DNA of 45,022 nucleotides from the NCBI GenBank assembly GCA_016841875.1, contig JAENYG010000003.1:166061-211082 (forward strand). The letters are read 5' to 3'. Positions 2,018 through 41,801 of this stretch are shown piece after piece. This stretch comes from Syntrophomonas sp. (lineage in GTDB: Bacteria; Bacillota; Syntrophomonadia; Syntrophomonadales; Syntrophomonadaceae). The notes below the pieces were generated by a model. It worked only from the letters and a program-made list of their open reading frames with translations. It did no database searches and was not told the origin of the DNA. Position numbers and translations under genes: made by a program. How positions within the stretch are numbered: the first letter of the stretch is position 1; each line of letters starts with the position of its first letter.

Positions 2018-2103
2018 GCAAGATTTCACGTGGGAATCCGGGTGGTTATATGCCATACGCCGATATACCTGTTGCTGATTCGATTGAAAGAGGTAGCTTT
2101 ATT

Positions 2104-3150
2104 ATGAAATGGAAACCTTATTTGATTATTATCATCCCAATATTTTTGCTGGGACCATTTATAGGGCCCGGTTTGGCTATTATGGACCTTGAGAAGTATA
2201 CAAATCAGATGTCTTTACCGGCTCAGGAAATCAATCAAAATATTGAACAATTAGAAAAGAGCATCTCATCCCTTTACCAGAATACCGTAACGGTTAGTGA
2301 ATCGGCAGCGGAACTTGAAAAGGAGTATCGGGATCAGGAACAGACTCTGGAAGAGTTGGCTAATATCAGCCAGAGCCATAAGGAGATGTCAGATCAGATT
2401 TATGAAGAACGGATTCTGGCTATGCTGGGACCACCTATCGATTCTTATATTTCAGACAAGGTGAATATCAAGGTGTTTAAGCTGGATGAAATGGGCTACC
2501 GTGGATATATAGCTAAAGTTAAATTGTTTGATCCTGGAGCAGTCAAAGTACTCCTTGGTCAAGACAAGTTAGGTTCCGGAGAAACAACGAGCAGTGCAGT
2601 CACCAGGACCGGAGCTATTTTGGGAGTAAATGGAGGGGGCTTTTATCATTCAGGCAACCAGATTCTGCCCCTTGGCAATACCGTGGTGGACGGAGAGTTT
2701 GTTAACGGGTTTCATCCTTCGGATGGAGATATCTTCTTTGCTGGAATCAGCCGGGACGGCGATCTAATAGGTGGTATTTTCTATGATAAAGAAAGCTTGA
2801 CCCGCCTTAATCCTCAACAGGGGGTCAGTTTCCTTCCCATTCTGATCAAAGATGGTCAGCCCCAGGCTGTGCCCAAGGAATGGGAAACCACAAAACAACC
2901 TCGAACCATTATCGGCGAATATGCTAACGGTGATTTTGTCTTGATTGTGGTGGACGGGCGCCAGTCAGATTGGAGTTCAGGCGTAACCCTGGAGAGACTC
3001 CAAAACAAGCTTGCCGAGCTGGGAGTTAAGGAAGGATACAACCTGGATGGCGGTGGTTCCAGCACTATGGTTTTCAAGGGCAAAGTATTGAATCGTCCTT
3101 CAGATGGAAATGAGCGGGCAGTTTCTAATAATATTGTAATACTGCCATGA
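2104..3150 (+). CDS. Phosphodiester glycosidase family (NAGPA/DUF2233-like) exported protein
   Basis: I place the start at ATG 2104 because AAAGAGGT lies just upstream; the frame also opens at ATG 2050, which has no good ribosome site. The product is 348 residues. An N-terminal hydrophobic segment (YLIIIIPIFLLGPFIGPG) is a signal anchor, followed by a coiled coil to about residue 120. The remaining ~210 residues form the NAGPA-type domain, with family hallmarks GAILGVNGGGFY, TIIGEYANGDFVLIVVDGRQ and YNLDGGGSSTMVF, the last being the usual Asp-Gly-Gly-Gly-Ser-Ser motif. The family includes the enzyme that uncovers mannose-6-phosphate and bacterial proteins linked to exopolysaccharide or spore-surface metabolism. 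Substrate is unknown. A 3' fragment of this gene is duplicated at 18899-19310. Confidence 0.85.
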   Translation: MKWKPYLIIIIPIFLLGPFIGPGLAIMDLEKYTNQMSLPAQEINQNIEQLEKSISSLYQNTVTVSESAAELEKEYRDQEQTLEELANISQSHKEMSDQIYEERILAMLGPPIDSYISDKVNIKVFKLDEMGYRGYIAKVKLFDPGAVKVLLGQDKLGSGETTSSAVTRTGAILGVNGGGFYHSGNQILPLGNTVVDGEFVNGFHPSDGDIFFAGISRDGDLIGGIFYDKESLTRLNPQQGVSFLPILIKDGQPQAVPKEWETTKQPRTIIGEYANGDFVLIVVDGRQSDWSSGVTLERLQNKLAELGVKEGYNLDGGGSSTMVFKGKVLNRPSDGNERAVSNNIVILP

Positions 3151-3478
3151 GAAACGCGAGGAAGGTTACATTAAACCCCTGGATGTAATTAATAGCTTTG
3201 ATTAATGACCTCTTAATAGTAAATATAAGGTATTTCTAAGGAAAGGAGAATAGGGAACATGGCACTATCTCAATGCAAGCGGGGACGGTTCTTGACTTGC
3301 ATTTGCATATGAGTAATACCCGGGGACAGAGTTATTATCACCTTTAATACTTTAGTCAAATTCCCATTATCCACATACCCGTTAGCCTAATATGCGCAGT
3401 TTATGATAATTATACATTAAGCCTAATAAGGATATTGATCGATCACAAAAGCTGAGAATTTGGAAGGAAGCTGTTAGC
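3151..3478. other. Intergenic stretch with dispersed-repeat copy
   Basis: There is no gene here. Positions 3151-3205 are the original of the sequence carried along in the duplicated NAGPA fragment (compare 19265-19315). Positions ~3320-3395 (GGGGACAGAGTTAT to TTAGCCTAAT) are one copy of a dispersed repeat seen again at 26511-26575. A GGGGACGGTTCTTG motif at 3279 has the look of sequence flanking REP/RAYT-type elements (inference). Confidence 0.45.
3320..3395. repeat. Dispersed repeat, copy 1 (partner 26511-26575)
   Basis: Both copies show the ordered blocks GGGGAC--AGTTAT--TCACC and CATTATCCA-AT-CCC-TT-G-CTAAT with similar spacing. The copies are diverged and no coding function is visible. 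Orientation is the same in both places. Confidence 0.45.
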
Positions 3479-6540: not shown

Positions 6541-6568
6541 CCCATAATCCCGAGGAAAGGTGGATCAC

Positions 6569-7603
6569 ATGATCCCAGCAGAAAAGTTATTCGCCCATGG
6601 CAAATTCATTACCGAAACCGAGCTGCAGAAAATCTCCAAAGAACGGGATTATCTGCAGTTTCATCGTGTAATTGAAGAATTGATAGAGAACGGGCTGCTG
6701 AGTCCGGTTAAGGCATCGGGGAAGAATGGCAGAATACCGCCTCTATATAATAAATATCGTATTATTAAGCCCCGGGAAGACTACAGTGAATACATGGATT
6801 CCATCCGGAGGCTTAACCCGCTTTTAAATATTCCCGAGTATCTCAATCGTCCGGAATTGTATAAGAAACATTTTGATATTGTGGAGGGATTGAGCCATTA
6901 TTTATGGTATAAAGCGGAGTTGCTGAAAGAACCTATGTCGCGCAAGGAACGCTCCTTTTCTATCTGGGGCCGGGAGAAGCTGGTGGATGAACATTTTTCT
7001 TTGGCTCGGGAGATACTTCGTTTTAATGGCCTGGAGGAGAATTTCCTGAATTATTATGACACGCCGGAACCATTTTTTGAGTATGTTCACAGCTATTCCC
7101 GGGAGATGACCGTTCTTATCCTGGAGAACAAGGACACCTGGTTCAGCTTCCGTAAATTGATGCAGGCTACCGGCAAGAACCTGATTGCAGGCACTGCAGT
7201 GGACTTGCTTCTATATGGTGAAGGTAATAAAATAAGCAAAAAGGGTGCGCTGGAGGATTATGCCAGCGGTATGCTGCGAAACCAGGAGGGACAAACTGTT
7301 AATTTCTTGTATTTCGGCGACCTGGATAAGGAAGGGATTCGCTTGTTCTTCCGTACTCGGGAAGCCAATCCCAGCCTGACTATTCAACCCTTTGCCCCGA
7401 TGTATAAACTGATGCTGGAGTTGGCCCGAGGGCGGGAAATGCCAGAGTCGCCGGATAAACGTGATTTGCCGGCAGCAATTAAAGATTTCGCTGAACTGCT
7501 GGGCGGTGACCAGGCCGGGGTTATTAACGACCTGCTGGCCAAAGGAAGATATATTCCCCAGGAAATTATTAATTATCAGGTCCTGGCAGGTATTTTAACT
7601 TAG
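6569..7603 (+). CDS. jetD: Wadjet protein JetD (Toprim-like nuclease)
   Basis: I choose ATG 6569 because GAGGAAAGG (6552-6560) is well spaced before it; a GTG at 6560 overlaps that site. The product is 344 residues. The C-terminal half is the DUF2220/JetD Toprim-like domain with acidic residues expected for metal binding: Glu186 in TVLILENKDTW and Asp251/Asp253 in YFGDLDKEG. The N-terminal half probably contains winged-helix arms. In Wadjet systems JetD is the nuclease activated by JetABC on small circular DNA. It is the first gene of a tight four-gene operon. A 33-bp piece of it is duplicated at 5431. Confidence 0.85.
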   Translation: MIPAEKLFAHGKFITETELQKISKERDYLQFHRVIEELIENGLLSPVKASGKNGRIPPLYNKYRIIKPREDYSEYMDSIRRLNPLLNIPEYLNRPELYKKHFDIVEGLSHYLWYKAELLKEPMSRKERSFSIWGREKLVDEHFSLAREILRFNGLEENFLNYYDTPEPFFEYVHSYSREMTVLILENKDTWFSFRKLMQATGKNLIAGTAVDLLLYGEGNKISKKGALEDYASGMLRNQEGQTVNFLYFGDLDKEGIRLFFRTREANPSLTIQPFAPMYKLMLELARGREMPESPDKRDLPAAIKDFAELLGGDQAGVINDLLAKGRYIPQEIINYQVLAGILT

Positions 7604-7621
7604 AAGCGAGGATAAACATCT

Positions 7622-9226
7622 ATGAAAAATTGGGATTTTCTCGAAGGTTTTGAAAAAAGAATGCAAATTTTGGCCGCTATTGACTCTATTGTCAACCGGC
7701 TCAACCGCAACATGGCCCTGGAGAACCTTTTTGAGCATGCCCAGTTGGACAATATTATATTTTCAGTCCTGGTGTTTATCATGGAAAGAACCCTCAGTGA
7801 GGATGAGGAATGCACCATCGACAGCATAAGCGCATTCCTGGAAAGCATTATTCCTGATTATACTCAGGATTTTCCAACCAATAACACCCGCCAACTGGCT
7901 GAATATATCATCAAAGACATCCTGCAAAATGGAGGGGAAGGCAGATATTATCCGGTTATGAAGTACGGAGAGGGATTGATCCCTACCCGCATAAGATTGA
8001 TAGATGATAAGCTCAAGGACAGCGATAAAGGTTACCTGGTAAGTTACCAGCTTACCAATCAGGGTTATGACCTGCTTTTCCGTACCAAGGAAGTGGAGCA
8101 GGAGATCAGCTTTACTATTGAAGAACTAAAACTGCGGGAACTCATCAAGCGCAAGAACTATAAGAAAGCTATCAGCCAGAGTGCTAATCTGCGGCAGATG
8201 ATACGACAGAAAAGGAATGATATAAGTCAGTTTATCCAGAGGATTCGAGAGAATATTTATGAGGTTGATATACAGGAATTTGAAAAACTGGTAGGCAGCA
8301 CCTACGCCCTCTTGGAAGAAGAGTATGGAACCATGAATGAAATTCATGATATGATAGTGCTTTCAGAGCAGCGCCTGCAGGAAGAGGAGAGTACCCGGGG
8401 CAGTCTGGATGAAGATATGAAGAAAGCACGCAGAGAGATCAGTATCATTCGCAGAAATATCACCAGTACCATAGACGAACAAAAACAAGTGATACTGGAG
8501 CGTCACAGCCTGTCCAGAATTTACAAAGACATGATCGAGGATTCTTTTTCCCTGTCGCTGGCCCGAGTTTATGACTTTGAGCAGGAAATCCTGGTTCCAC
8601 TGGGAAAATGTCCTGAAGAGAAGATCAACCATCTATGGGAACTGCTAAATCCGTTGTTTAAGCCTAATCCCAATAAGAATCTCAATCTGCTATCCCTGTA
8701 TGAACGCCAGGCCCGCATACGCCCTGAGGATGAGGCGGCAGAAGGCGTTTCCATTGTGGAACTGGGCGAAGATCAGGAACTGCAGAAAATTAAAAGGATA
8801 AATGCTGCCCACATAGAATTAATCCGCTCCATTCTGGAATTGGCTGCAATCAAAGGCTCTTCCTATCGATTTAGTGAATTGTATACCTGCCTGCGGAACC
8901 ATCTGGATATCTATAATCAGCTGATGGAGGATGATCAACTTTTCAAATCCATACTAAAGCTTTATGATCTAAATATTATCGATATCGGTGTCTGGCAAGC
9001 CCAACATGAAGAAGTGGTGGCCAATGCTACCGGAGAACTGGACGTAAACTTATGTTTATGTCACATTCAATACGACCGCCCGGATATGTACGGGGTCAGG
9101 AAAATAAGCATACAAAAGCCTGATGATAAGCTGTTTGAGGACGATCTTCTATACAAGCAGGATGATGCGGTTTATTCTAAACATATTGTTATCAGCGACT
9201 TTCTTATCGAGGTGGATATAGTATGA
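7622..9226 (+). CDS. jetA: Wadjet protein JetA (MukF/kleisin-like)
   Basis: The 534-residue protein starts after GCGAGGA, 18 bp behind jetD. Its place before a small winged-helix protein and an SMC-like ATPase, and its all-helical composition, identify it as JetA (DUF5716-type as I recall). JetA is the MukF/MksF-like kleisin that bridges the JetC ATPase heads. The N-terminus is a helical/winged-helix region, residues ~160-300 are long charged helices, and the C-terminus ends in a beta-rich segment (KHIVISDFLIEVDIV). It overlaps jetB by 4 bases (ATGA). Confidence 0.85.
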   Translation: MKNWDFLEGFEKRMQILAAIDSIVNRLNRNMALENLFEHAQLDNIIFSVLVFIMERTLSEDEECTIDSISAFLESIIPDYTQDFPTNNTRQLAEYIIKDILQNGGEGRYYPVMKYGEGLIPTRIRLIDDKLKDSDKGYLVSYQLTNQGYDLLFRTKEVEQEISFTIEELKLRELIKRKNYKKAISQSANLRQMIRQKRNDISQFIQRIRENIYEVDIQEFEKLVGSTYALLEEEYGTMNEIHDMIVLSEQRLQEEESTRGSLDEDMKKARREISIIRRNITSTIDEQKQVILERHSLSRIYKDMIEDSFSLSLARVYDFEQEILVPLGKCPEEKINHLWELLNPLFKPNPNKNLNLLSLYERQARIRPEDEAAEGVSIVELGEDQELQKIKRINAAHIELIRSILELAAIKGSSYRFSELYTCLRNHLDIYNQLMEDDQLFKSILKLYDLNIIDIGVWQAQHEEVVANATGELDVNLCLCHIQYDRPDMYGVRKISIQKPDDKLFEDDLLYKQDDAVYSKHIVISDFLIEVDIV

Positions 9227-9936
9227 GTTCAATAAATACCGCTTTGCAAATATTCAGAAAACTTTTAGACAAAGGACAGATTGAGCGAGAGAGCGATGGA
9301 GACCTTTTTCTGGAGTTTCGCAATGGAGAAGTCAGGTCTGTCCTGACCCATCTGGAGGAAGAGTTAGACTTCAAAATTGTTGAGGCTTCCAATACTTTCT
9401 ACCTGATTCCGGACAGCAGCAACAATTTGCTGGGTTTTGTAAGCAAAGATCTCCGTGAGTGGGTGGCTTCCGATGCCAGATTATTAGATAGTTATCTCCT
9501 CTGTTATATTTCCATGTATACCTTTTATCTTTTTTACGGCGGGCGTAATCGTAATCCCAAGCAAAGAGAATTCTTACGGGTCAGTAAATTATTGGAGGAA
9601 CTGGACCTGAGGCTGGGACGAGCTCTGGCTGATGACGAAGCCACAGCCGGTTTGGAAGAACGTTATGGCCTCAATTTTATCAAGCTGGCTGAACTCTGGG
9701 AGAGCAAACAAGATTTTGAGGAAAAGGCGCGCAAGACTAAAACCGGAACCATCCTTAATGCCTGCCGGCTGCTGGAACGCCAAAATTTGCTGCGGTTGGT
9801 GGATAATGACCGGGAAATTAGATGCACTCGCAAACTGGATGACTTAATGCTGAATTATTATTTAAGTGACACCCGGGTAGACGAGATCCACGCCTTATTC
9901 GAAGGGGGAAGCGAGCCGGATGCCAAAAATCAATAG
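9223..9936 (+). CDS. jetB: Wadjet protein JetB (MukE/kite-like)
   Basis: The 237-residue protein begins at the ATGA overlap with jetA and overlaps jetC by 17 bases. Size and position match JetB, the MukE/MksE-like KITE subunit that dimerises and binds JetA. Predicted winged-helix elements lie at residues ~1-70 and ~165-215 (ILNACRLLERQNLLRLVD is a typical recognition helix/wing). No enzymatic motif is expected or seen. Confidence 0.85.
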   Translation: MSSINTALQIFRKLLDKGQIERESDGDLFLEFRNGEVRSVLTHLEEELDFKIVEASNTFYLIPDSSNNLLGFVSKDLREWVASDARLLDSYLLCYISMYTFYLFYGGRNRNPKQREFLRVSKLLEELDLRLGRALADDEATAGLEERYGLNFIKLAELWESKQDFEEKARKTKTGTILNACRLLERQNLLRLVDNDREIRCTRKLDDLMLNYYLSDTRVDEIHALFEGGSEPDAKNQ

Positions 9937-12900
9937 GATCAGAATCGTTAATTTTTCATATAACAATGATACCCGTCATATAATTGACGAGATTTTTAAT
10001 TTCCATGGCGGTGAGGACGCTCTCTTGAACCTGGCCAATGGCGGCGGTAAAAGCGTTCTGGTGCAGCTTATGATGCAGGTTGTGGTGCCCGGCGTTAAGA
10101 TACAGGGTCGCAATATCGCAAGCTTTTTCCGCAAGAAAAAGTTACCATCGTATATTATGATGGAATGGAAACTGGACGGCGGGGGAGGGTACCTGCTTAC
10201 CGGTATTGGCATTACAGCTGGAGAAGCTTCGGAACAGGAAGGCTCCAGGCCGCAAGTGAGGTATTTTAATTTTACTTCAAAATATATCGGGGCCAATGCC
10301 TTCGATATTATCAGCATTCCGCTAATAGAGAGAAACGGCGAAGTTTTAGATATCAAGCCTTTCCGGGAAGCCCGTAAAATAATAGCCGACAAAGGAAAAA
10401 AAGATCCCTACCTGGTAGGATATTACCCGGAGGATGAAAAGGATCATTATGTTAAACGCCTGGCCGAATTTGGTATAGTCCAGGATGAATGGCGCAATAT
10501 CATAGCCAGGATCAATGACAGTGAAAACGGTTTGGAGGATCTATTCCAGAAGTACCGCAATTCCAGCCATTTGCTGGATGACTGGATCATTAAAACCGTG
10601 GAAAAAGTCATGTTTAAAAGCCCAAGCGAAGAACAGCAATTGGAAGCCATGCTGCAAAGCCTGGTGCAGGAGGTGGTGGAGAATGAGCACTTCATCATGG
10701 AAAAGCAGCTGTTTACCGGATTTCTTCAGAGGCTGCAGGAAGTACTTGCACAGCTGGGCGGCTTATTAAAGGATCTCGAAGATCAAAAACAACTGGCAGC
10801 AAACTTGGCTGCATTATATTTATACCTGAGCAAAGAGATAAATACCCGGCAAGATCAGCTGCAAATCAACCAGGAGGCAATAGATGCCGCTAAGATTGAG
10901 GAACAAAGGATAGAACTGGAGGAGCGCTCCCATGACTGTTTAATCAAACAAGGGGAGTATCAGGAAGCTCTGTCCAGGCTGACCACTGCCGAAGAAAGTT
11001 ACAGTGAGGCAGACGCCGCACTAAACCAGAGCAAAAAAGAGGAAACCATTATGCGAGCGGCCGGCCTGGCCATGGAAATCCGGCAGTTGAGCTCTGAATT
11101 GTCCGGGATCGAAGAGAACCTGGCCATGGCCAGGAAAGATTATGATAAGGATGAACGGGCCAGCCGCCTGGAATATGCTTTGAAAATCAGGTATCAAGAA
11201 CTGCTGAAATTGCTGGCAGCTGAGCTTGGCAATCTGCGGGCCGCACAAATTGACCGGCAAGAAAGACTGGCTGGTGAGAAGCAAGAACTGCAGGGTATGG
11301 AAATAGAAAAAAGCCACCTGGATTTGGATAAGGGAAGACTTGAAGAACGTTTGAGAACCTATAAGGAACAGGAGAATCGCCTTCAGAAGTGGCTGGGCAG
11401 GCAATGGATAAGAAATCTCCTGAGCGAACTGGAACCAGCGCAGATGGATCAAATCTACAACAGCTTGCTGGAAGCTAAAAAGCAGCTGCTGAGAGACCAT
11501 GAAAAAGTGCTGACAGAGAAGTCCTCCATTGCTCAACGCCAGCAGGACATAGACCAGGAATGGAAAGAAATCCAGACCAGCAGGGAGGATAATAATAGGG
11601 TTTTACTGGATCACCAACGTGAGCTGACTGCCTACCTGCAAAGGGAGCAAGAAGTAAAAAACATACTGGACCGCTATGGTTTTGATTCGTCCCTCTGTTT
11701 TGAAGGGGAGCGTCTGTCATCACTTTTTGCCAAACATATAAAAGAATTGGTGTACCAGACGGAGACAGCTGCCCGAACTCAAAAGGAGATCGTGGAATCA
11801 CTCTCTTCTATAAAGAATGGACACCTGCACACTTCTCAGGAGCTGGCATCTGTTCTGGCCGAGCTGGACATTGAGTATGACACCGGGGAAAGCTATCTGC
11901 GCAATCAAAGACCCGATATTCGCCGGAAAATGCTGAGTGGTAACCCCATTCTACCTTATACCTTTATCATGTCCAGGACAGACATAAACCGGATAGCGGA
12001 ATCAGGCGGCCTTGATATAGTCCAGCGCCGTATTATTCCCTTGATGGCCTACGAGGATTTGAATCTATTGATTGAAAACCAGGGCGGGATTGCCCGGCCT
12101 CGGGAGGAAATCGCTTTCGCCTGCCTGTATGAGGGCAGAATCTTTGATAATGAAAATTTAGAAGCACTGATTCTGGAGCTGGACAAAAAAGGGGAAGAGG
12201 CCGGAGAACGCCATAGCCACTATATCGAAGCTCACCATGCAGCTCTGCTGGATAGTTCAGCCTGTCATAGCTTTGATTATACTGCGGATTTTCGTTACGA
12301 ATTAGAGAAAGCAATAAGCTCCGGCAAGAAATGCGGTAAAGAATTAGATCAACAGCTTGCTAAGCTGGAAGAAGAAAAAAAACAGCTTATCCAGCAACGT
12401 AATCAACTGGATGAGGAAGCCAGGAAGCTGGCCGAAAACATTCCCCGGGCGGAGGAATCACTGCTGGCATTCCGGGAATATATGGAAAAAGAGCCTGACT
12501 ACCAGGAATGCCGTAGCAAGCTGGATCAAATTGGGCAGGAGCTGCTGAGCTTTGAACAAAAAAGGGGTCAACTGAACCAAAGCCTGGACAAACTGCAAAA
12601 TGATATATCTGTTGGGAAAAATCGTATCACGGAACTGGAAAGACAGGAACGGGCGGCTGAACAGCAATATCCTTTGTACCAGGATGCGACCCCAGCACAA
12701 GATGAAGCAGGAAGCGTCGAGGAACTGGAAAAACGTCTGAATGCCATAAAAGAAGGTTATAACCAGGAAATCGGACAACTAGAGCAACGGCAGCAGGATT
12801 TAACCGGAAATCGTCGGAAGACACAAAAGAAGCTTGATAAACTGGGACTTAACGAGGAGGATTACTCTTTAACCTTTTTTAATGAAAACGAACATGAATC

Positions 12901-14338
12901 CATTCAGGGAGAAATCATTCGCCTTGAAGCATTACTTAAAATAAAACAGGGAGAAAAAGAACTTGCATCCAGATCGGAAGCTGCTGCTGCCACGGCGATC
13001 AAAACCGCTATGGACGAGCTGATAAGACTTGGTGCTGAAGCCCCGCTTCCTCCCCAGGAGATAAAAGGCGATTTTAATGCGCGGCGAGTAAAGCTACGTC
13101 GGCAGGCTGAAGAACTCAACGAAATGAACAGAAACATTTCCCAAATATTATTCCGCTGCAACAGGAGCAGGGAGAATATTGAAAAAGCGGTGGATCTGAA
13201 CACTGTCGAAGCTGCCAAAACTTTTGTCCCCGAAGCAGATGTTTTGGCTCAGGCCTCTCGCTGGGAAGATGAGTTCCGCAAATTACAAAATAGCAATCAT
13301 GCCAATGCGGATACCATAAAGAATCATTACCTTCTCTGCAAAATGGATTTCCGGGAAAAGAATCTTAATCTGGACAGTATATTTAAAGGGCTCGACCCGC
13401 TCTGGGATAAAGCGCAAACAGAGTTTGATGATTTTTACTACCTATTTGAGCGAATGAGCCAGCATAGTGATAAACTGGGCGAGTTGATTGCCATTTATGA
13501 GTCTCAGCTGGCCAACCTGGAACGCAATAAAAAGGATATGGTCCAGCAAAGCTTTCTTCAGGGGCGGCGAATATTTGAAGAAATCAGCTTGATATCAGAG
13601 AGTTCCAAGGTTCGCCTGCAAGGCAGGTCCAGGCTGGTACAAATGCTGAGGATTGATCTGCAGTTTGATAATCATGAGTCTGCCCGGCAGCGGATGAATG
13701 AATATATTGAGGAGTGTATCAGCCAGGTCAGAGACAAAACCAGGCAGGAAAATAAAGATAATGAAGTGCGCAAGGTGGCAGCCCGTTTAATGTCCAGCCG
13801 CGAACTCCTCAATATATATATTGGCACGGCCCGAATACCGGTCAGTGTATTTAAAATTGACATGAACATGCAAAATAGCAGGCTAAAAAACTGGGAAGAC
13901 GCGGTACGGGAGAATTCAGGCGGGGAAAAATTCGTAGTTTTCTTTTCCTTGCTTTCCGCCTTGATGGCGTACACCCGAGCGCGAAATATGGAAGCACTGG
14001 GAGCCGACCCTGACACCGATACCCGGGTACTAATCATGGATAATCCCTTTGGCCCCATTTCATCGGAACATCTGCTCCAACCCATGTTTGAAATAGCTAA
14101 AAGGCACCGAACCCAGTTGATATGTTTATCCGACCTCAAGCAGAATTCCATTATGAACTGCTTTAACCTGATCTATATGCTCAAAGTGCGAACCGCAGCC
14201 ATAGGCGGTGATGAATACCTCAAATTTGAGGAGCATGTTCGGGATGAAAATACTTTACATAACGATGAAAAACTTGAAAAAGCCGTATACCGGGTATCAG
14301 ATTTTAAACAAATGCCTATGTTTGTGGACGAAGAGTAA
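9920..14338 (+). CDS. jetC: Wadjet protein JetC (SMC-like ATPase)
   Basis: The 1472-residue protein has the SMC layout. The N-terminal head carries the Walker A variant LANGGGKSVLVQL (GGGKS at 41-45). Long coiled coils surround a central non-coil hinge region. The C-terminal head carries the ABC signature SGGEK (about 1333-1337) and a Walker B VLIMDNPFG (Asp1374). The residue after the Walker B Asp is Asn rather than the usual catalytic Glu; I believe this DNPF form is normal in this branch but could not check. JetC hydrolyses ATP to extrude DNA loops and, with JetA and JetB, presents small circles to JetD. It ends the operon; no clear terminator follows. Confidence 0.9.
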   Translation: MPKINRIRIVNFSYNNDTRHIIDEIFNFHGGEDALLNLANGGGKSVLVQLMMQVVVPGVKIQGRNIASFFRKKKLPSYIMMEWKLDGGGGYLLTGIGITAGEASEQEGSRPQVRYFNFTSKYIGANAFDIISIPLIERNGEVLDIKPFREARKIIADKGKKDPYLVGYYPEDEKDHYVKRLAEFGIVQDEWRNIIARINDSENGLEDLFQKYRNSSHLLDDWIIKTVEKVMFKSPSEEQQLEAMLQSLVQEVVENEHFIMEKQLFTGFLQRLQEVLAQLGGLLKDLEDQKQLAANLAALYLYLSKEINTRQDQLQINQEAIDAAKIEEQRIELEERSHDCLIKQGEYQEALSRLTTAEESYSEADAALNQSKKEETIMRAAGLAMEIRQLSSELSGIEENLAMARKDYDKDERASRLEYALKIRYQELLKLLAAELGNLRAAQIDRQERLAGEKQELQGMEIEKSHLDLDKGRLEERLRTYKEQENRLQKWLGRQWIRNLLSELEPAQMDQIYNSLLEAKKQLLRDHEKVLTEKSSIAQRQQDIDQEWKEIQTSREDNNRVLLDHQRELTAYLQREQEVKNILDRYGFDSSLCFEGERLSSLFAKHIKELVYQTETAARTQKEIVESLSSIKNGHLHTSQELASVLAELDIEYDTGESYLRNQRPDIRRKMLSGNPILPYTFIMSRTDINRIAESGGLDIVQRRIIPLMAYEDLNLLIENQGGIARPREEIAFACLYEGRIFDNENLEALILELDKKGEEAGERHSHYIEAHHAALLDSSACHSFDYTADFRYELEKAISSGKKCGKELDQQLAKLEEEKKQLIQQRNQLDEEARKLAENIPRAEESLLAFREYMEKEPDYQECRSKLDQIGQELLSFEQKRGQLNQSLDKLQNDISVGKNRITELERQERAAEQQYPLYQDATPAQDEAGSVEELEKRLNAIKEGYNQEIGQLEQRQQDLTGNRRKTQKKLDKLGLNEEDYSLTFFNENEHESIQGEIIRLEALLKIKQGEKELASRSEAAAATAIKTAMDELIRLGAEAPLPPQEIKGDFNARRVKLRRQAEELNEMNRNISQILFRCNRSRENIEKAVDLNTVEAAKTFVPEADVLAQASRWEDEFRKLQNSNHANADTIKNHYLLCKMDFREKNLNLDSIFKGLDPLWDKAQTEFDDFYYLFERMSQHSDKLGELIAIYESQLANLERNKKDMVQQSFLQGRRIFEEISLISESSKVRLQGRSRLVQMLRIDLQFDNHESARQRMNEYIEECISQVRDKTRQENKDNEVRKVAARLMSSRELLNIYIGTARIPVSVFKIDMNMQNSRLKNWEDAVRENSGGEKFVVFFSLLSALMAYTRARNMEALGADPDTDTRVLIMDNPFGPISSEHLLQPMFEIAKRHRTQLICLSDLKQNSIMNCFNLIYMLKVRTAAIGGDEYLKFEEHVRDENTLHNDEKLEKAVYRVSDFKQMPMFVDEE

Positions 14339-17048: not shown

Positions 17049-18538
17049 CTAAATTGATTTTGCCAGCTGAATAAGGCGTTCCGCCATATTCGCCATTTCA
17101 GTTACCGAAGCCGTAACTTGCTGAGTGGCTGCAGCTTGTTCCTGGCTCTGTTTAACTGTATTTTCGGAAGCGGCAACAGCACCATACACTGTGCCATCAA
17201 TTTTCTCTATTAGTTGGCTAATCTCATCCGCTGTTTTTTTCGATTCGTCCGAGAGTTTCCGGATTTCTTCAGCAACCACTCCAAAACCGCGTCCATGCTC
17301 ACCCGCTCGGGCGGCTTCAATAGCAGCATTCAATCCCAACATTTTGGTCTGGTCAGCGACGCTTTTTGTAAAGCCTACAATCTCACTAATACTGGCTGCA
17401 TTTTTTCGTACTTCCTGGATTAATTCCGCCAACTTACTTTCGGTAATATTGATCTCTCCAGCGGAAGCTGCAATTTCCTGCATTACACTGGCTACTTCAG
17501 AAGTACTGGCATTTAGCTTGTTAGCCATCTCTAGCAAGTCGCGGGCCAGGTTCCGAGGAACCGTAATGCCAAAAGTACCAACCAGGTCACCGGTCTCATC
17601 ATCATAAAGCGGAATGCCAAACATGCGTATATTACCGTATTTCTTGGTACTTAAGTCTTGCTGGATCTTTCTACGAGCTTTGATAGTTTGAGATCCGGTG
17701 TCACCATCAACAAGAGGTGTCCCTACTTGAAAGTCCTTTAAATCAAATTTCTCTGACCCCATCCTGTTAACTATCTTTTCAAGATCGGTAACCCCAACCC
17801 AAGCCCCTTCTGGTTGAGAATCAATAATGATAGGGGCAAAAACATCGAAAGCGTCTTCAACAGGGTGAAGTTTGGGGGTATAGACACCATAAGTACCTAC
17901 CACTGGTTTGCTTTCGTCATCATCTTCGAAGAGAGGCATTACCCAAAGGTGTAGTAATACTCCGTAAACATTTCTTTGCACAAGTTCCGAGATTTCCTGA
18001 CGAGTTTTTATACAGCGCTCGATTGTTCCTCCCTGAACCAGACGCTCTCCGTCTCGGATGCCAGCTACATCGAGATTATGAGATCTTACAGAATCATATC
18101 GCTCCGTGTCTGTTGTAAAGTAAATAACCCCATCTTTTCCATAAGTCTTGGTTATTAATGGGGCTGATGTTTGAAAAGCAATTTTTTTTTCCACGAGTTT
18201 GTTTTAAAATTTTCTCGTGACCCTCTACAAAAGTCATCATCATATTAGCCATATGGGAATCCATTACTGTAACAATTGATGGTTTCATATTAACTGCTTG
18301 TTCACGAACCCGTTCACTTCCAGTAGCCTCAATAACTATTTCCAAACCAGGTTGTTGTATCATTACCTGAAGATTGAAGATCATTAAATACTGGAACCCC
18401 TAATTCCTTGGCTAACTTTATCCCAGGTGCTTCATAGTTAACATCACAAATACCTAGTATCTTGAATTCTTTAATACCACTGAACGCTCTTAAGATCGTT
18501 GTTCCCCCGTTACCACCGCCAATAATCGCAATATTCAT
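17049..18538 (-). pseudogene. Rossmann-PAS-MCP soluble chemoreceptor, two frameshifts
   Basis: Three minus-strand frames join into one ~496-residue protein. The first (from 18538, after GGGAGTGAT) encodes an NAD-binding Rossmann start (MNIAIIGGGNGGTTILRAF, then ILGICDVN). The second (from ~18375) continues LEIVIEATGSERVREQ to HEKILKQTRGK. The third (to 17049) has a PAS-like sensor region and a full MCP signalling domain (GLNAAIEAARAGEHGRGFGVVAEEIRKL). A single missing base near 18375 and a one-base change in an A9 run (18190-18182) separate the frames. No transmembrane segment is present, so it would be a cytoplasmic receptor for CheA/CheW. The frameshifts may be real decay, slippage-based switching, or sequencing error. 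Confidence 0.75.
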
Positions 18539-18854: not shown

Positions 18855-19265
18855 ATGAAAAGTTCGCGTGATGAATTATTTCAATTTAATAGTAAGCAAA
18901 TCTATGATGAAGAAAGCTTAAACCGCCTTAATCCTCAACAAGGGGTCAGCTTCCTTCTCGTTCTGATCAAAGACCCCCTTGCTGTGCCCAAGGAATGGGA
19001 AACCACCAAACAACCTCGAATCATTATAGGCGAGTATGCTAACGGTGATTTTATCTTGATCGTGGTGGACGGACGCCAGTCAGATTGGAGTTCAGGTGTA
19101 ACCCTGGAGAGACTCCAAAACAAGCTTGCCGAGTTGGGAGTTAAGGAAGGATACAACCTGGATGGCGGTGGTTCGAGCACTATGGTTTTCAAAGGCAAAG
19201 TATTAAATCGTCCTTCTGATGGAAATGAGCGGGCATTTTCTAATAATATTGTAATACTACCATGA
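18855..19265 (+). pseudogene. Duplicated 3' fragment of the NAGPA-like gene
   Basis: From ~18899 the frame is a close copy of 2781-3150, differing by scattered substitutions and a small deletion (one short region, LIKDGQPQAVPKE versus LIKDPLAVPKE). It keeps RQSDWSSGVTLERLQNKLAE and the DGGGSSTMVF motif but lacks the signal anchor, coiled coil and first half of the domain. The homology continues ~45 bp past the stop into non-coding sequence (AGCTTTGATT), so DNA rather than mRNA was copied. The first 15 codons (MKSSRDELFQFNSKQ) are unrelated. No good ribosome site is seen, so it is most likely non-functional. Confidence 0.8.
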
Positions 19266-19392
19266 GAGACGTGAGGAAGATTTAAATTGAATCCCTGGCT
19301 GTAATTAATAGCTTTGATTTTAGGTTTGAACGCCTCGGCCATGAGTGGGCCTGAACATGACGGTCCTAATTCCTCCAGCAGGCATGGTATTA

Positions 19393-20444: not shown

Positions 20445-20729
20445 GATTTCAACCTCCCTTAATAAGCAGTGAAATTATAAAATAGGTCCTAAAACAATAT
20501 ATGTAGTTCACAGTCAAATGGTTAAATATGCCATAATGAAATTGTTCTCTTGGCTATAATGTATTATGCTAGACTATGGTACCAGTCACGGAGATGCGGG
20601 GAGGCACCTGCTAGGAGGGGCCCACGTGCACCTTAATATTACAGGGGGATTGAGCTGGCCAAACTGCTGATATTTAGTAACACGGCGGGCAGTGATGGTT
20701 TACATAATGTTACTGCCATCTCTCTTTTC

Positions 20730-20789
20730 GTGCGATATAATCTTATTTGCTATATATCGCACTATATGCTATAATCATCGTACGAGGTG
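20730..20789 (+). promoter_or_regulatory. Promoter and palindromic operator of Phd-Uma2 copy 1
   Basis: TTGCTA (20747-20752), a 17-bp spacer and TATAAT (20770-20775) form a good SigA promoter with a TGC extension. GTGCGATATA (20730-20739) and TATATCGCAC (20753-20762) are a perfect 10-bp inverted repeat across it, and TCGTACGA at ~20778-20785 is a second palindrome before the GAGGTG ribosome site. This suggests autorepression by the N-terminal Phd domain (inference). Confidence 0.65.
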
Positions 20790-20795
20790 ATTGAT

Positions 20796-21545
20796 ATGAA
20801 TGAAACCACAAAAGTTATTACCGCCACTGAGTTGAAGACCAATCTGGGTCAATACATCGACTATGTTATTGATGACCACGAGGTTGTTATTACCAAAAAC
20901 GGTAAAAAGGCCATAAGAATTACACCTTACATCACTGATATCGAACGATATTTTTTGGTCAAAGAAAACGCATTAGATTATCAATATGGCGGCAAGAAAG
21001 TATCATATGAAGAATTCATGGAGATTTACGAGAAAAGCGAGCTAAGAATGGAATATATCAACGGTGAAATAGTCCTTTTGGCTTCCCCCAGCACCTATCA
21101 TCAGGACATATCCGGGAATTTGCATATCCATCTGCGATCATATTTAAAAGGCAAGAATTGCAAGGTTTTCTACGCCCCTTTTGATGTTCATTTCTACAAA
21201 AAAGACCTTAAAACACCTGATGTAATGCAGCCCGATTTGCTTATAGCATGCGATTTGGAGAATAACGTTAATGAAAACGGCCGATACATGGGTACACCCA
21301 CGCTTTGCGTTGAAATTTTATCAAAAAGCACTCGTTCAAAGGATATGGTAGATAAGCTCAATACTTATATGTTATCCGGTGTGAGGGAATTCTGGATTGT
21401 CGATCCTTTTAAACATTCTGTTATGGTGTATGGCTTTAAGGACTTAGAAATTGACGAGTATACCACCTGTAAAATCGGGGATACGCTAACATCGTATTTT
21501 TTTGAGGGTTTAGAGATTCCGATAAGTGAAGTATTCGAGTTTTAA
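20796..21545 (+). CDS. Phd/YefM antitoxin-Uma2 nuclease fusion, copy 1
   Basis: I choose ATG 20796 (GAGGTG six bases before) over an in-frame GTG at 20787. The protein has 249 residues. Residues ~5-50 are a Phd/YefM-type DNA-binding domain (VITATELKTNLGQYIDYV, then VVITKNGKKAIRI). Residues ~70-245 are a Uma2 (DUF820) domain of the PD-(D/E)xK nuclease fold: Glu91 in NGEIVLL, Asp147 in QPDLLI, Glu173 in VEILS and Lys187 followed by YMLSGVREFWIVDP. All candidate catalytic residues are kept. Uma2 is presumed an endonuclease but its substrate is not established. A near-identical gene lies at 38620. The domain pairing suggests a self-regulated nuclease. Confidence 0.8.
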   Translation: MNETTKVITATELKTNLGQYIDYVIDDHEVVITKNGKKAIRITPYITDIERYFLVKENALDYQYGGKKVSYEEFMEIYEKSELRMEYINGEIVLLASPSTYHQDISGNLHIHLRSYLKGKNCKVFYAPFDVHFYKKDLKTPDVMQPDLLIACDLENNVNENGRYMGTPTLCVEILSKSTRSKDMVDKLNTYMLSGVREFWIVDPFKHSVMVYGFKDLEIDEYTTCKIGDTLTSYFFEGLEIPISEVFEF

Positions 21546-38330: not shown

Positions 38331-38569
38331 TAATTCATTAAGTTTGTTGATGGTGGTCTCGTTAAGTATTATGGTTTCCTCCCATAGTACTCAGCCCCAC
38401 GGGTGAAACCCAATTAGCATTAACTTATTTACCAAGCCGTTTACCAGTCGTGGTGACGGGTAATACCGTAAATAGCTTCAGCGGATGGAGTGGGAAAAAG
38501 ATCATATTCGAAAAAGAAGCCAACAAAAAGACCGTCCCTCCATTAGCCTTTTCGTACTACAATAACATA
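38331..38569. other. Intergenic stretch
   Basis: No gene is recognised. It contains a GACCGTCCCTCC-like scrap resembling the GGGAC-type remnants seen elsewhere. Confidence 0.35.
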
Positions 38570-38616
38570 TTGGCATAATATCGTACTATATGCTATAATT
38601 TTCGTACGAGGTGATT
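38570..38616 (+). promoter_or_regulatory. Promoter of Phd-Uma2 copy 2
   Basis: TTGGCA (38570-38575), an 18-bp spacer and TATAAT (38594-38599) form a strong SigA-type promoter. The part ATATCG-ACTATATGCTATAAT and TCGTACGA is shared with copy 1, but the left arm of copy 1's 10-bp palindrome is absent, so operator architecture differs. Confidence 0.65.
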
Positions 38617-38619
38617 AAT

Positions 38620-39369
38620 ATGGATGATACCACAAAAGTTATTACCGCCACCGAGTTGAAGACCAATCTGGGTAAATACATCGACTATGTTATCGATGAC
38701 CACGAGGTTGTTATTACCAAAAACGGCAAAAAGGCCATAAGGATTACCCCTTACATCACTGATATCGAGCGATATTTTTTGGTCAAAGAAAACGCATTAG
38801 ATTATCAATATGGCGGCAAGAAAGTATCATATGAAGAATTCATGGAGATTTACGAGAAAAGCGAGCTAAGAATGGAATATATCAACGGTGAAATAGTCCT
38901 TTTGGCTTCCCCCAGCACCTATCATCAGGACATATCCGGGAATTTGCATATCCATCTGCGATCATATTTAAAAGGCAAGAATTGCAAGGTTTTCTACGCC
39001 CCTTTTGATGTTCATTTCTACAAAAAAGACCTTAAAACACCTGATGTAATGCAGCCCGATTTGCTTATAGCATGCGATTTGGAGAATAACGTTAATGAAA
39101 ACGGCCGATACATGGGTACACCCACGCTTTGCGTTGAAATTTTATCAAAAAGCACTCGTTCAAAGGATATGGTAGATAAGCTCAATACTTATATGTTATC
39201 CGGTGTGAGGGAATTCTGGATTGTCGATCCTTTTAAACATTCTGTTATGGTCTATGGCTTTAAGGACTTAGAAATTGACGAGTATACCACCTGTAAACTC
39301 GAGGACACTCTGACATCGTATTTTTTTGATGGTTTAGAGATTCCGATAAACGAAGTATTCGAATTTTAA
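38620..39369 (+). CDS. Phd/YefM antitoxin-Uma2 nuclease fusion, copy 2
   Basis: The 249-residue protein is nearly identical to the one at 20796. It differs by a few residues at the N-terminus (MDDTTK versus MNETTK, LGKY versus LGQY) and near the C-terminus (KLEDTLTSYFFDG versus KIGDTLTSYFFEG, INEVF versus ISEVF). The central ~150 codons are the same in protein and apparently in DNA. All putative Uma2 catalytic residues are intact. GAGGTG precedes the ATG. Its 3' end overlaps by 4 bases the converging broken protease gene. Confidence 0.8.
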   Translation: MDDTTKVITATELKTNLGKYIDYVIDDHEVVITKNGKKAIRITPYITDIERYFLVKENALDYQYGGKKVSYEEFMEIYEKSELRMEYINGEIVLLASPSTYHQDISGNLHIHLRSYLKGKNCKVFYAPFDVHFYKKDLKTPDVMQPDLLIACDLENNVNENGRYMGTPTLCVEILSKSTRSKDMVDKLNTYMLSGVREFWIVDPFKHSVMVYGFKDLEIDEYTTCKLEDTLTSYFFDGLEIPINEVFEF

Positions 39370-41635
39370 TCAACATAGTATATCTGATCAATGGGAATAG
39401 CCAAGTTCAGATTTTGACCATCAATAAATGTACCCGTTGTTATGCCAATTACCTCACCAAATTCGTTTATAAGTGCACCTCCGCTACTACCAGGGGATAT
39501 AGGTGCAGAGATTTGGAACCAGGTTTGACCGTCAAATAAACGTTCAGGGTTAGATATTAACCCAGCAGAAATGGTGTTTTCCAATCCTAATGGACAACCA
39601 ATAGTATAAATTGTTTGTCCTCCCACAACCTTAGCAGAGTCGCCGATTTTTAAGTAATCAAATCCAGTTCCTGGTATTTTCAATATTGCTATATCATTAA
39701 CGATACTTGATCCCAGTAACGAGTCAGCCCACAATACACTTCCATTTGTTGTAAGAATTTTTACGTAACTAGCCCCCTGTATTACACCTCACCGTCATCT
39801 GTGATAAAGAATCCACTGCCTGTACCAAGCAACTCTGAATTTGAATCGTAAGCCTCAATATAAACCACGCTCGATGAACATTTAGCATATATGTCTTTTG
39901 ACGAAAGTACTGAATTTAATTCCGAGTTGACTTCAGGTATAGAATAGGTGGAATCATTTGGATTGGATGTTATCGTTCCTTGATCTTGATTAAAAAGCCA
40001 TGTTGCCAAATTCTTATGGGTAGATGCTTCCGACTTAAATGAAGCAATATAGTCATTATCGTTATAATCTGTATACACAAAATGTCCATCAAAAACTCCA
40101 AAGTTTATATGGTTTTGCTTAGTTTGTACACTACCCCATTGATTTTTTGCATTTATTTCATCAATTCGTGCTATCCAATCAAAGTTGTAGTATAAAGAAT
40201 TATTAAAATAATTAATATCAACAGGAAAACCCATAATACTGGTATCCCCTCGATATAATAACTTTTTGGAAGTAATATTATTTAACATCACTTTATTTAC
40301 ATTACCGCTTCTTTCAACATAATACGCTATGTTACCATAAAATGAAACGGTACTAACATTTTGCAGAATCGGTAATTCTGCCTGTGTACTAATATCCAGT
40401 TCCATTATTTTTGATTCTGCCAGATAATATAAATGACCATTAATGCCTGAAAGTCTATAAGCCCACCCTTCACCACTCTTTAAGGTATATTGGTTAGTGC
40501 CAGCGATCTTTCTTATATCATATAAAGAATAGGCGGCATCTTGATCTGACGTATCCCAATCAGGATTGTTTTTAGTGGTTAAGATATACAACTCATCTCC
40601 ATAAATAGTTAACCCAGAAATATAATCTCCATCAAATATTTTACTAACTACATATGAATCTAAGCTAATCTTTTTTAAAATACTCTTAAAATCATAAGTA
40701 TTAAAATCAAAATCAGCTTCAACTATATACAGTTCCCGGTTATACATCGATTTTATTTTAGGCGCTTCAAAATGAGATTTATTCTCAAGTATATTCCCGT
40801 AATAAATTATGTTTGTTTTCTTAGTAATAGTGTTATACTCGGCTATGTTATATCTAGAAAATGTTTTATCCCAATAAACAATATAAACTTGGTTTCCACT
40901 CTGAAAAACACTCGAATAATTTTGTATATTACCTTCTTGGCCAACTATTTCAGAATTATAGTTGCGATCATGGGCAAGTCTATTTAGGGGGTCTATCAGT
41001 CTTCCAATAATCGTTGCAATTTCAGCTCTGGTTGCTAAGCCATTGCCATCAAACAAACCTCCTGATTTGCCGCCAATAATTCCTGACGAATACATTTTTT
41101 GAACGGATTCACGGTAAATAGCACTAATTTCATCAATGTCGGGGACAGCTAAATCATTTATAGCCGCAGTATCTTGGGAAGATAATATTTGCGCAAATAA
41201 ATACGCTATTTCAGAACGCGTTATATATTGGGTACTCACATCTGATACTGACGTATAACTTGGTGGCAGTAAATTGTTATTTTGAGCATAAATAAAGTAT
41301 TTCTCATACCAAAAAGGTGAATCAATTTCAGAAACTAGTTGTTTGGTATAAATTGCATGAACTCTCGCTGCAATTGTAATTGCTTGTGCTTTTGTAAGAT
41401 TCCTATTAGGTGCATAAAGGTTTAGGCCAACCCCATCCATAATGCCATAATCAAATACTGTCTTAACCCCTGAATAAAACCAATTCACTTCTTTTACGTC
41501 TGAGAATGTAGTTATTTCCATCGATTTTATTGTATTAAAATTACTTAAAGTGCCAAAACTCTGAGCATTAGCATTTTTGCTGCCGAACAATAAAACTACA
41601 AAAAAAATAATTACCAGGACTTTAAGTCTCTTCAT
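39366..41635 (-). pseudogene. SLH-domain, beta-propeller, serine-protease surface protein, broken
   Basis: From ATG 41635 (GAGGAG six bases before) the frame gives a signal peptide (KVLVIIFFVVLLFGSKNANA), three S-layer-homology domains for cell-wall attachment (residues ~45-220), a DUF5050-like propeller (to ~550), and the start of a trypsin-like HtrA-type protease domain (GTGSGFFITDDGEV) that stops at 39782. The rest continues in another frame: VIQGASYVKILTTNGSVLWA, catalytic Asp in VNDIAIL and catalytic Ser in SPGSSGGAL, ending at 39366. Between GEV and VIQG the usual V-T-N-Y-H is missing, so a short deletion removed the catalytic His and shifted the frame. The protease cannot work, but the truncated surface part may still be made. 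Confidence 0.8.
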
Positions 41636-41801
41636 GTTAATCTCCTCTGTTTTATAAACCATCTAGTTTGAAGGCTTCGTTCTTTTTTCAGCTTACTGTA
41701 TTTCCCTATAATATCTGAATTATACATTATTTGCCTAATTTATTCCAGGAATACAAATTTGAGATACCCTCAACGTAATATATTTAAAAACAATTTGATT
41801 A

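Follow-up and report, generated by a model that had tools for sequence, protein, structure and literature searches.

The window analysed here, a 45,022-nucleotide stretch of Syntrophomonas sp. DNA, appears to hold a disrupted second copy of a soluble, internal chemoreceptor that responds to NAD(H) and feeds CheA. We give this reading a probability of about 60% and, as part of it, place the receptor family in Syntrophomonadaceae-type Firmicutes. The gene occupies 17049–18538 on the minus strand. From the N-terminus, it specifies a Rossmann domain, a pair of PAS/GAF-like domains, and a cytoplasmic MCP signalling domain. In the window ORF list, it appears as three overlapping open reading frames (ORFs) in three different frames.

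The broken receptor gene and its intact paralogue

The first piece (18329–18538, minus strand) supplies the start codon and the first half of the Rossmann domain. Its 69-aa product, MNIAIIGGGNGGTTILRAFSGIKEFKILGICDVN, contains MNIAIIGGGNGGTTILRAF...ICDVN, and both the GGGNGG loop and the ICD at the end of strand 2 are present in the window copy. Taken alone, this piece matches NAD-binding Rossmann models weakly, with GFO_IDH_MocA (E 1.8e-4) falling just under its cut-off. The register is kept to ∼18381, and the first frame change occurs at a perfect 7-bp tandem doublet (18368–18381, minus strand). The second piece (18094–18384, minus strand) supplies the other half of the Rossmann domain, including IEATG and a DSHMANMMM-like stretch, and keeps its register to ∼18190, where a nine-base homopolymer (a T9 run at 18182–18190, minus strand) is the site of the second frame change. 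The third piece (17049–18194, minus strand) encodes 381 aa with both PAS/GAF-like domains and the MCP signalling domain. Mapped from the structure model of a relative (locus L079), the first PAS/GAF-like domain lies at approximately 17870–18145 and the second PAS-like domain, which has a YfmS-type fold, at approximately 17555–17872, both on the minus strand. The Pfam MCPsignal match covers residues 258–376 of the 381-aa piece (17067–17423, minus strand), and the whole hairpin runs from ∼17540 to the stop codon.

An intact 495-aa paralogue, P0002, is encoded on contig C14 of the same genome (G000:C14). In a tblastn comparison, its residues 17–55, 54–113, and 116–495 match the three window frames in order, with 59% identity across the last 380 residues (116–495). 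Because this intact protein covers all three frames in order, we read them as one protein; a chance joining of three unrelated frames is ruled out. The MCPsignal domain (PF00015) is recognised in both copies, at E 9.5e-27 in P0002 and E 1.4e-28 in the 381-aa window ORF, and Pfam finds no sigma-54 AAA match in P0002. When the Rossmann profile is run against the host's own genome (E ≤ 0.01), it retrieves no ordinary dehydrogenase; its matches are the intact C14 gene, a C42 gene that fuses the Rossmann domain directly to an MCP, and both halves of the broken gene in the window. The sequence-only reading had described 17049–18538 as a chemoreceptor with a Rossmann domain, a PAS-like sensor, and a cytoplasmic MCP domain. 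The ORF contents, the Pfam matches, and the paralogue alignment agree with it in position and content, and the intact homologues and the structure model of the relative bear out the architecture.

The window copy is probably a pseudogene that has lost its function. The break at the 7-bp tandem doublet is an ordinary replication slip. A partial copy of another window gene lies nearby: 18901–19319 (plus strand), beginning ∼360 bp upstream of the broken receptor gene, is 91% identical to 2780–3203, the end of the gene at 2050–3150, and this partial duplicate fits a decaying neighbourhood. Alternatively, the frame breaks may be assembly or sequencing errors in a gene that is intact in the living strain. 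One of them does sit in a nine-base homopolymer, and elsewhere the gene keeps an open frame and is well conserved. However, the slip at the doublet and the partial duplicate both speak for genuine decay, and among the matched genomes a full-length member was not found in the two congeners, so no intact orthologue is at hand. We consider such errors a somewhat unlikely explanation. Another MCP gene of the same genome (G000:C34:70343–70723) carries an in-frame stop and may be another broken receptor beside the one in the window.

Fold and motif of the Rossmann domain

An AlphaFold2 model of residues 1–328 of the L079 relative, built from 14 sequences, has a pLDDT of 84.8. Its residues 1–98 superpose on DmpF (1nvm_D; Z 12.9, rmsd 2.0, 95 aligned residues, 19% identity) and on NAD-bound GenD2 (6nor; Z 12.8, rmsd 2.1, 95 aligned residues); inositol dehydrogenases superpose on this part as well. 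A PDB search with a profile of 37 Rossmann domains likewise retrieved the acylating acetaldehyde dehydrogenases 4lrs (E 3.7e-6) and 1nvm (E 7e-6), followed by Rex (5zz5, E 8.7e-4) and inositol dehydrogenases. In Pfam, GFO_IDH_MocA matches above its cut-off in L054, L059, and L041 and below it in P0002 and L064, and CoA_binding (PF02629) matches the Rossmann part weakly.

The glycine loop GxGxx[GA] (G8, G10, G/A13) and an acidic residue at position 33 (D/E33) occur together in 120 of 126 Rossmann domains, among them all 64 in which the domain is joined directly to an MCP. Of the six exceptions, five have an altered loop and one lacks the start of the domain; the acid itself, with which strand 2 ends, occurs in all 126. 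A GxGxxG loop with an acid at this position marks Rossmann domains that bind NAD(H), the acid being typical of ribose binding. The universal acid argues for NAD(H) over NADP(H). The sequence-only reading had proposed a receptor that could report the NAD(P)H redox state or a dehydrogenase-type ligand. Motif conservation and the modelled superposition on NAD-bound dehydrogenases lend good support to a dinucleotide input, with NAD(H) fitting better than NADP(H). Reporting by the window copy itself is unsupported because the gene is broken.

Similarity to dehydrogenases stops at the dinucleotide-binding half. The acetaldehyde dehydrogenase model TIGR03215 scores 24.3 bits against a cut-off of 282 and is matched at profile positions 3–95 of 285 only, which indicates that the catalytic half of the enzyme is missing. 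This absence and the common continuous fusions rule out an ordinary dehydrogenase that happens to lie beside an MCP. The NCBIfam Rex model scores 14 bits against 233, with residues 2–89 aligned to profile positions 85–172 of 214 and the N-terminal part of the model unmatched. Among the proteins searched in the home phylum and in a second phylum, no Pfam or NCBIfam match names the Rossmann module as a sensor, and NCBIfam models named the N-terminal module in none of five proteins tested. The weak NCBIfam matches were to acetaldehyde dehydrogenase (L197, L207) and to a NeuD-type model (L207).

The middle region, modelled alone, has a pLDDT of 88.5 and forms two PAS/GAF-like domains. The second PAS-like domain, which directly precedes the MCP hairpin, superposes on residues 11–116 of Bacillus subtilis YfmS (Z 14.8–14.9, rmsd 2.2, 105 aligned residues, 24% identity). 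The ∼220 residues ahead of it comprise the Rossmann domain and the first PAS/GAF-like domain. The nearest folds to this first domain are of the IrrE/PprI and IclR types (Z ∼10, rmsd 2.5–2.8, 92–97 aligned residues), matches that may reflect merely a common arrangement, as the tool itself notes. A PDB sequence search with the PAS-like region returned nothing useful.

Architectures and spread of the module

A search of 398 genomes of the phylum with residues 1–330 of the paralogue gave matches in 106 (E ≤ 1e-10), counting either the Rossmann or the PAS-like part. We classified the ORFs at the fetched Rossmann-bearing loci with profiles built in this analysis. Since the set was picked by likeness to P0001, the resulting counts are no unbiased frequencies: 64 of the 126 ORFs join the Rossmann domain directly to an MCP (typically about 283–285 aa from the domain start, as in Candidatus Formimonas warabiya, L093), 36 join it to a sigma-54 AAA activator, 19 of ∼490 aa contain the Rossmann domain, two PAS-like domains, and an MCP, and seven are others or fragments that lack an MCP or sigma-54 match. 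The 19 are continuous homologues across all three frames, whose absence would have refuted the sequence-only reading; together with the 64 direct fusions they make 83 MCP fusions. Outside the main classes, L072 (home phylum) ends in an HD domain of the HD-GYP type and L095 is a histidine kinase, both by Pfam; L096 is a kinase by eye, from its likeness to L095; L167, also by eye, has a Rossmann domain, a PAS domain, and an HTH-like end with the AAA part absent; and L123, L141, and L189 are short and possibly broken. At two Desulfobacterales/Deltaproteobacteria loci, the Rossmann domain heads histidine kinases (L095 by Pfam).

The 126-ORF count covers L039–L078, L080, L081, L083, L085, L093, L095, L096, L104–L123, and L131–L190. 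It leaves out L079, L082, L084, and L086–L092, which lie at the same places as loci already counted, L094, where the PAS-like part matched alone, and the broken window gene. A contig search with alignment A1 gave 25 loci, and one with a single protein as query gave none. Of the 25, L097–L103 matched weakly and only in part (E 1e-5 to 2e-4), and they enter no count.

On the Kyte–Doolittle scale, the usual threshold for a hydrophobic segment is 1.6 over 19 residues. No 19-residue window exceeds this value in 76 of the 83 MCP fusions, so most are soluble receptors; a marginal window above it in the other seven suggests that a few may touch the membrane.

The module also extends across this second phylum, that of the two Desulfobacterales/Deltaproteobacteria loci, where a Rossmann-profile search matched 80 of 297 genomes (E ≤ 1e-12). 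According to Pfam, six of ten representatives carry histidine kinase domains (L197, L198, L201, L206, L208, and L210), L204 combines GAF with GGDEF, and L209 combines GGDEF with HD-GYP. L200 shows PAS and GAF only, in an open frame cut by the end of the fetched stretch. No other Pfam domain intervenes between the Rossmann module and the output in L197, L206, and L209. The Rossmann part is thus a module that heads several kinds of signalling protein, not an oddity of one receptor. It also occurs in other forms: L207 (1495–1938) encodes the Rossmann module by itself, in 148 aa and with no signalling domain attached, and the same search returned several other open frames of ∼150 aa. In L210 (1114–3342), a PAS histidine kinase carries two Rossmann modules in tandem, and several further open frames have two Rossmann matches each.

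Gene neighbourhoods differ among the classes. The sigma-54 members adjoin genes for fumarase, succinate dehydrogenase, malic enzyme, and acyl-CoA synthetase, in various sets at L064–L067, L069, L119, L120, and L122, an arrangement that resembles propionate oxidation clusters. L070 (7733–9793) and L078 (7214–9307) encode BkdR-type sigma-54 activators with a Rossmann module, two PAS domains, AAA, and HTH. Both lie upstream of genes for phosphotransbutyrylase (ptb), leucine dehydrogenase, and butyrate kinase, the kinase being read by eye. We found no neighbour theme shared by the MCP members, including the direct Rossmann-MCP genes; an acyl-CoA dehydrogenase-like gene (cluster 39) neighbours L040. 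The intact paralogue is preceded by acyl-CoA dehydrogenase and CoA-transferase genes and followed, 33 bp downstream on the same strand, by a NAD kinase gene. We count this adjoining NAD kinase in favour of NAD(H) reading. The one other NAD kinase seen lies in the stretch fetched around the sigma-54 locus L071; the linkage is therefore not conserved and does not count as evidence for the family.

Proposed ligand and output, and comparison with known systems

From the domain order, the modelled fold, the motif, and the spread of the module, we infer NAD(H) binding, a sensory role, and coupling to CheA. In intact members, the N-terminal Rossmann domain, a dinucleotide-binding half without its catalytic half, would bind NAD(H) and exchange NAD+ and NADH. 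The helix that follows strand 5 would carry the resulting change to the MCP hairpin, either directly or via the PAS-like pair, which may add or relay a second input. The hairpin would then control CheA through CheW and so make swimming depend on the NADH/NAD+ state inside the cell, a form of energy taxis. Consistent with an NAD(H) receptor, no catalytic domain follows the module; instead, the chain leads straight into an MCP, a sigma-54, a histidine kinase, or a GGDEF domain. The host genome has 13 MCPsignal matches and one CheA-type match (H-kinase_dim).

The main rival ligand is CoA. Acylating acetaldehyde dehydrogenases also bind CoA, and they are the closest solved sequence relatives of the module; this resemblance and the weak CoA_binding match would allow a domain that senses CoA or a short acyl-CoA (or a nucleotide such as ATP/ADP) and reports the flux of acyl-CoA catabolism. 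Genes of acyl-CoA and organic-acid metabolism recur as neighbours of the host's own paralogue, of L040, of the sigma-54 members, and, in the ptb–leucine dehydrogenase–butyrate kinase order, of L070 and L078, but many of them are equally NADH-linked. Two further points argue against CoA: every domain ends strand 2 with the NAD(H)-typical acid, and NAD-bound enzymes are among the best superpositions. We regard CoA sensing as unlikely. Still less probable is a Rossmann domain that serves as a structural or dimerisation scaffold, or that binds its cofactor permanently, with the PAS/GAF-like pair sensing the signal. The actual sensor could be the PAS-like pair: receptors of ∼390 aa match from about residue 105 on only, with a PAS-like part and no Rossmann match, the second PAS-like domain shares the fold of YfmS, and, according to an excerpt of a review (PMC13401364), cytoplasmic chemoreceptors use PAS domains as sensors more often than any other domain. 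However, such a scaffold is hard to reconcile with the direct Rossmann-MCP members, which show no PAS-like match, with the members that join the Rossmann domain directly to a kinase or cyclase, and with a glycine loop and acid kept in nearly all domains.

The receptor might also have an output other than taxis (gene regulation, c-di-GMP, or pili, without flagella), since sigma-54 activators, kinases, and GGDEF enzymes carry the same Rossmann module. Against this stand the MCP hairpin tip, which is canonical and conserved in all 15 rows of the alignment, and the one CheA-type match of the host genome. We think this output as improbable as the scaffold.

Rossmann redox sensors such as Rex and redox-reading chemoreceptors such as Aer are known kinds of protein. 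Rex reads NADH/NAD+ with a Rossmann domain that lacks enzyme activity, and it carries a winged-helix DNA-binding domain and a domain-swapped helix. The window family shares the Rossmann input, as the profile match to 5zz5 reflects, but places it ahead of an MCP, sigma-54, kinase, or cyclase output. The DmpF-type acylating acetaldehyde dehydrogenases provide, in their N-terminal domain, the best PDB sequence relative and one of the best structure relatives; in the window receptor, the catalytic half is absent and the chain runs on into signalling domains. A role of Rex in redox sensing is stated in an excerpt of PMC4324140.

Among chemoreceptors, Aer and AerC read the internal redox state with FAD in PAS domains, as an excerpt of PMC13401364 describes. 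Internal redox reading is what we propose here, by a Rossmann module; Aer-type receptors have an FAD-binding PAS domain, and the folds observed here are tandem PAS/GAF-like ones. Words beginning with NAD or Rossmann are absent from the main text of that review. YfmS, an orphan chemoreceptor of B. subtilis, is likewise soluble, and its N-terminal fold corresponds to the second PAS-like domain, but it has neither an N-terminal Rossmann domain nor the first PAS/GAF-like domain. The match starts at YfmS residue 11, which leaves no room for a Rossmann domain; a Foldseek match (9a72_A) that might have suggested one aligns to the second PAS-like domain, and a shared Rossmann domain is ruled out. The excerpted text of PMC7542364 and PMC5137498 states no ligand for YfmS.

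Among regulators, BkdR of B. thuringiensis is described in an excerpt of PMC4428206 with two PAS/PAC domains and no Rossmann domain, and with the ptb, leucine dehydrogenase, and butyrate kinase gene order downstream. L070 and L078 lie upstream of the same gene order and share the two PAS domains, AAA, and HTH. BkdR differs from the window receptor in its transcriptional output and in its description; only the Rossmann module is common, by way of L070 and L078. A survey of 490 sigma-54 activators in Clostridiales lists PAS, GAF, ACT, CBS, and other inputs, and the excerpted part names no NAD-binding input (PMC6615313). An open-licence literature search found no description of a Rossmann-MCP joining or of the same module on five signalling outputs.

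Tentatively, we conjecture that an NAD(H)-reading Rossmann module is a general signalling input in at least two phyla, serving chemoreceptors, sigma-54 activators including the BkdR type, histidine kinases, diguanylate cyclases, and HD-GYP proteins, and that its chemoreceptor form steers syntrophic fatty-acid oxidisers towards NADH reoxidation, that is, towards a hydrogen-consuming partner. Bacteria may in this way steer and regulate themselves by their own NADH level. The abstract of PMC5626996 states that syntrophs can release hydrogen from NADH only while a partner keeps hydrogen low; an NADH-reading receptor would therefore tie motility to partner finding. If this conjecture is correct, the direct Rossmann-MCP protein, in ∼285 residues, would offer a receptor for the NADH pool itself in minimal form, one that is easy to purify. 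The module on sigma-54, kinase, and c-di-GMP proteins would also give one testable input rule for many regulators filed as PAS-only or without an assigned signal, such as the BkdR-type activators of branched-chain keto acid breakdown.

Elsewhere in the window, PADLOC models identify a complete Wadjet type III set (JetD3, JetA3, JetB3, and JetC3) at 6560–14338 (plus strand). An 822-bp duplication (20724–21545 and 38548–39369, plus strand; 96% identical) contains a gene for a 252-aa protein with matches to the PADLOC models for PDC-S03. On the minus strand, an apparent single protease-type gene with S-layer-like repeats, read by eye, is split into two ORFs (39366–39734 and 39782–41662).
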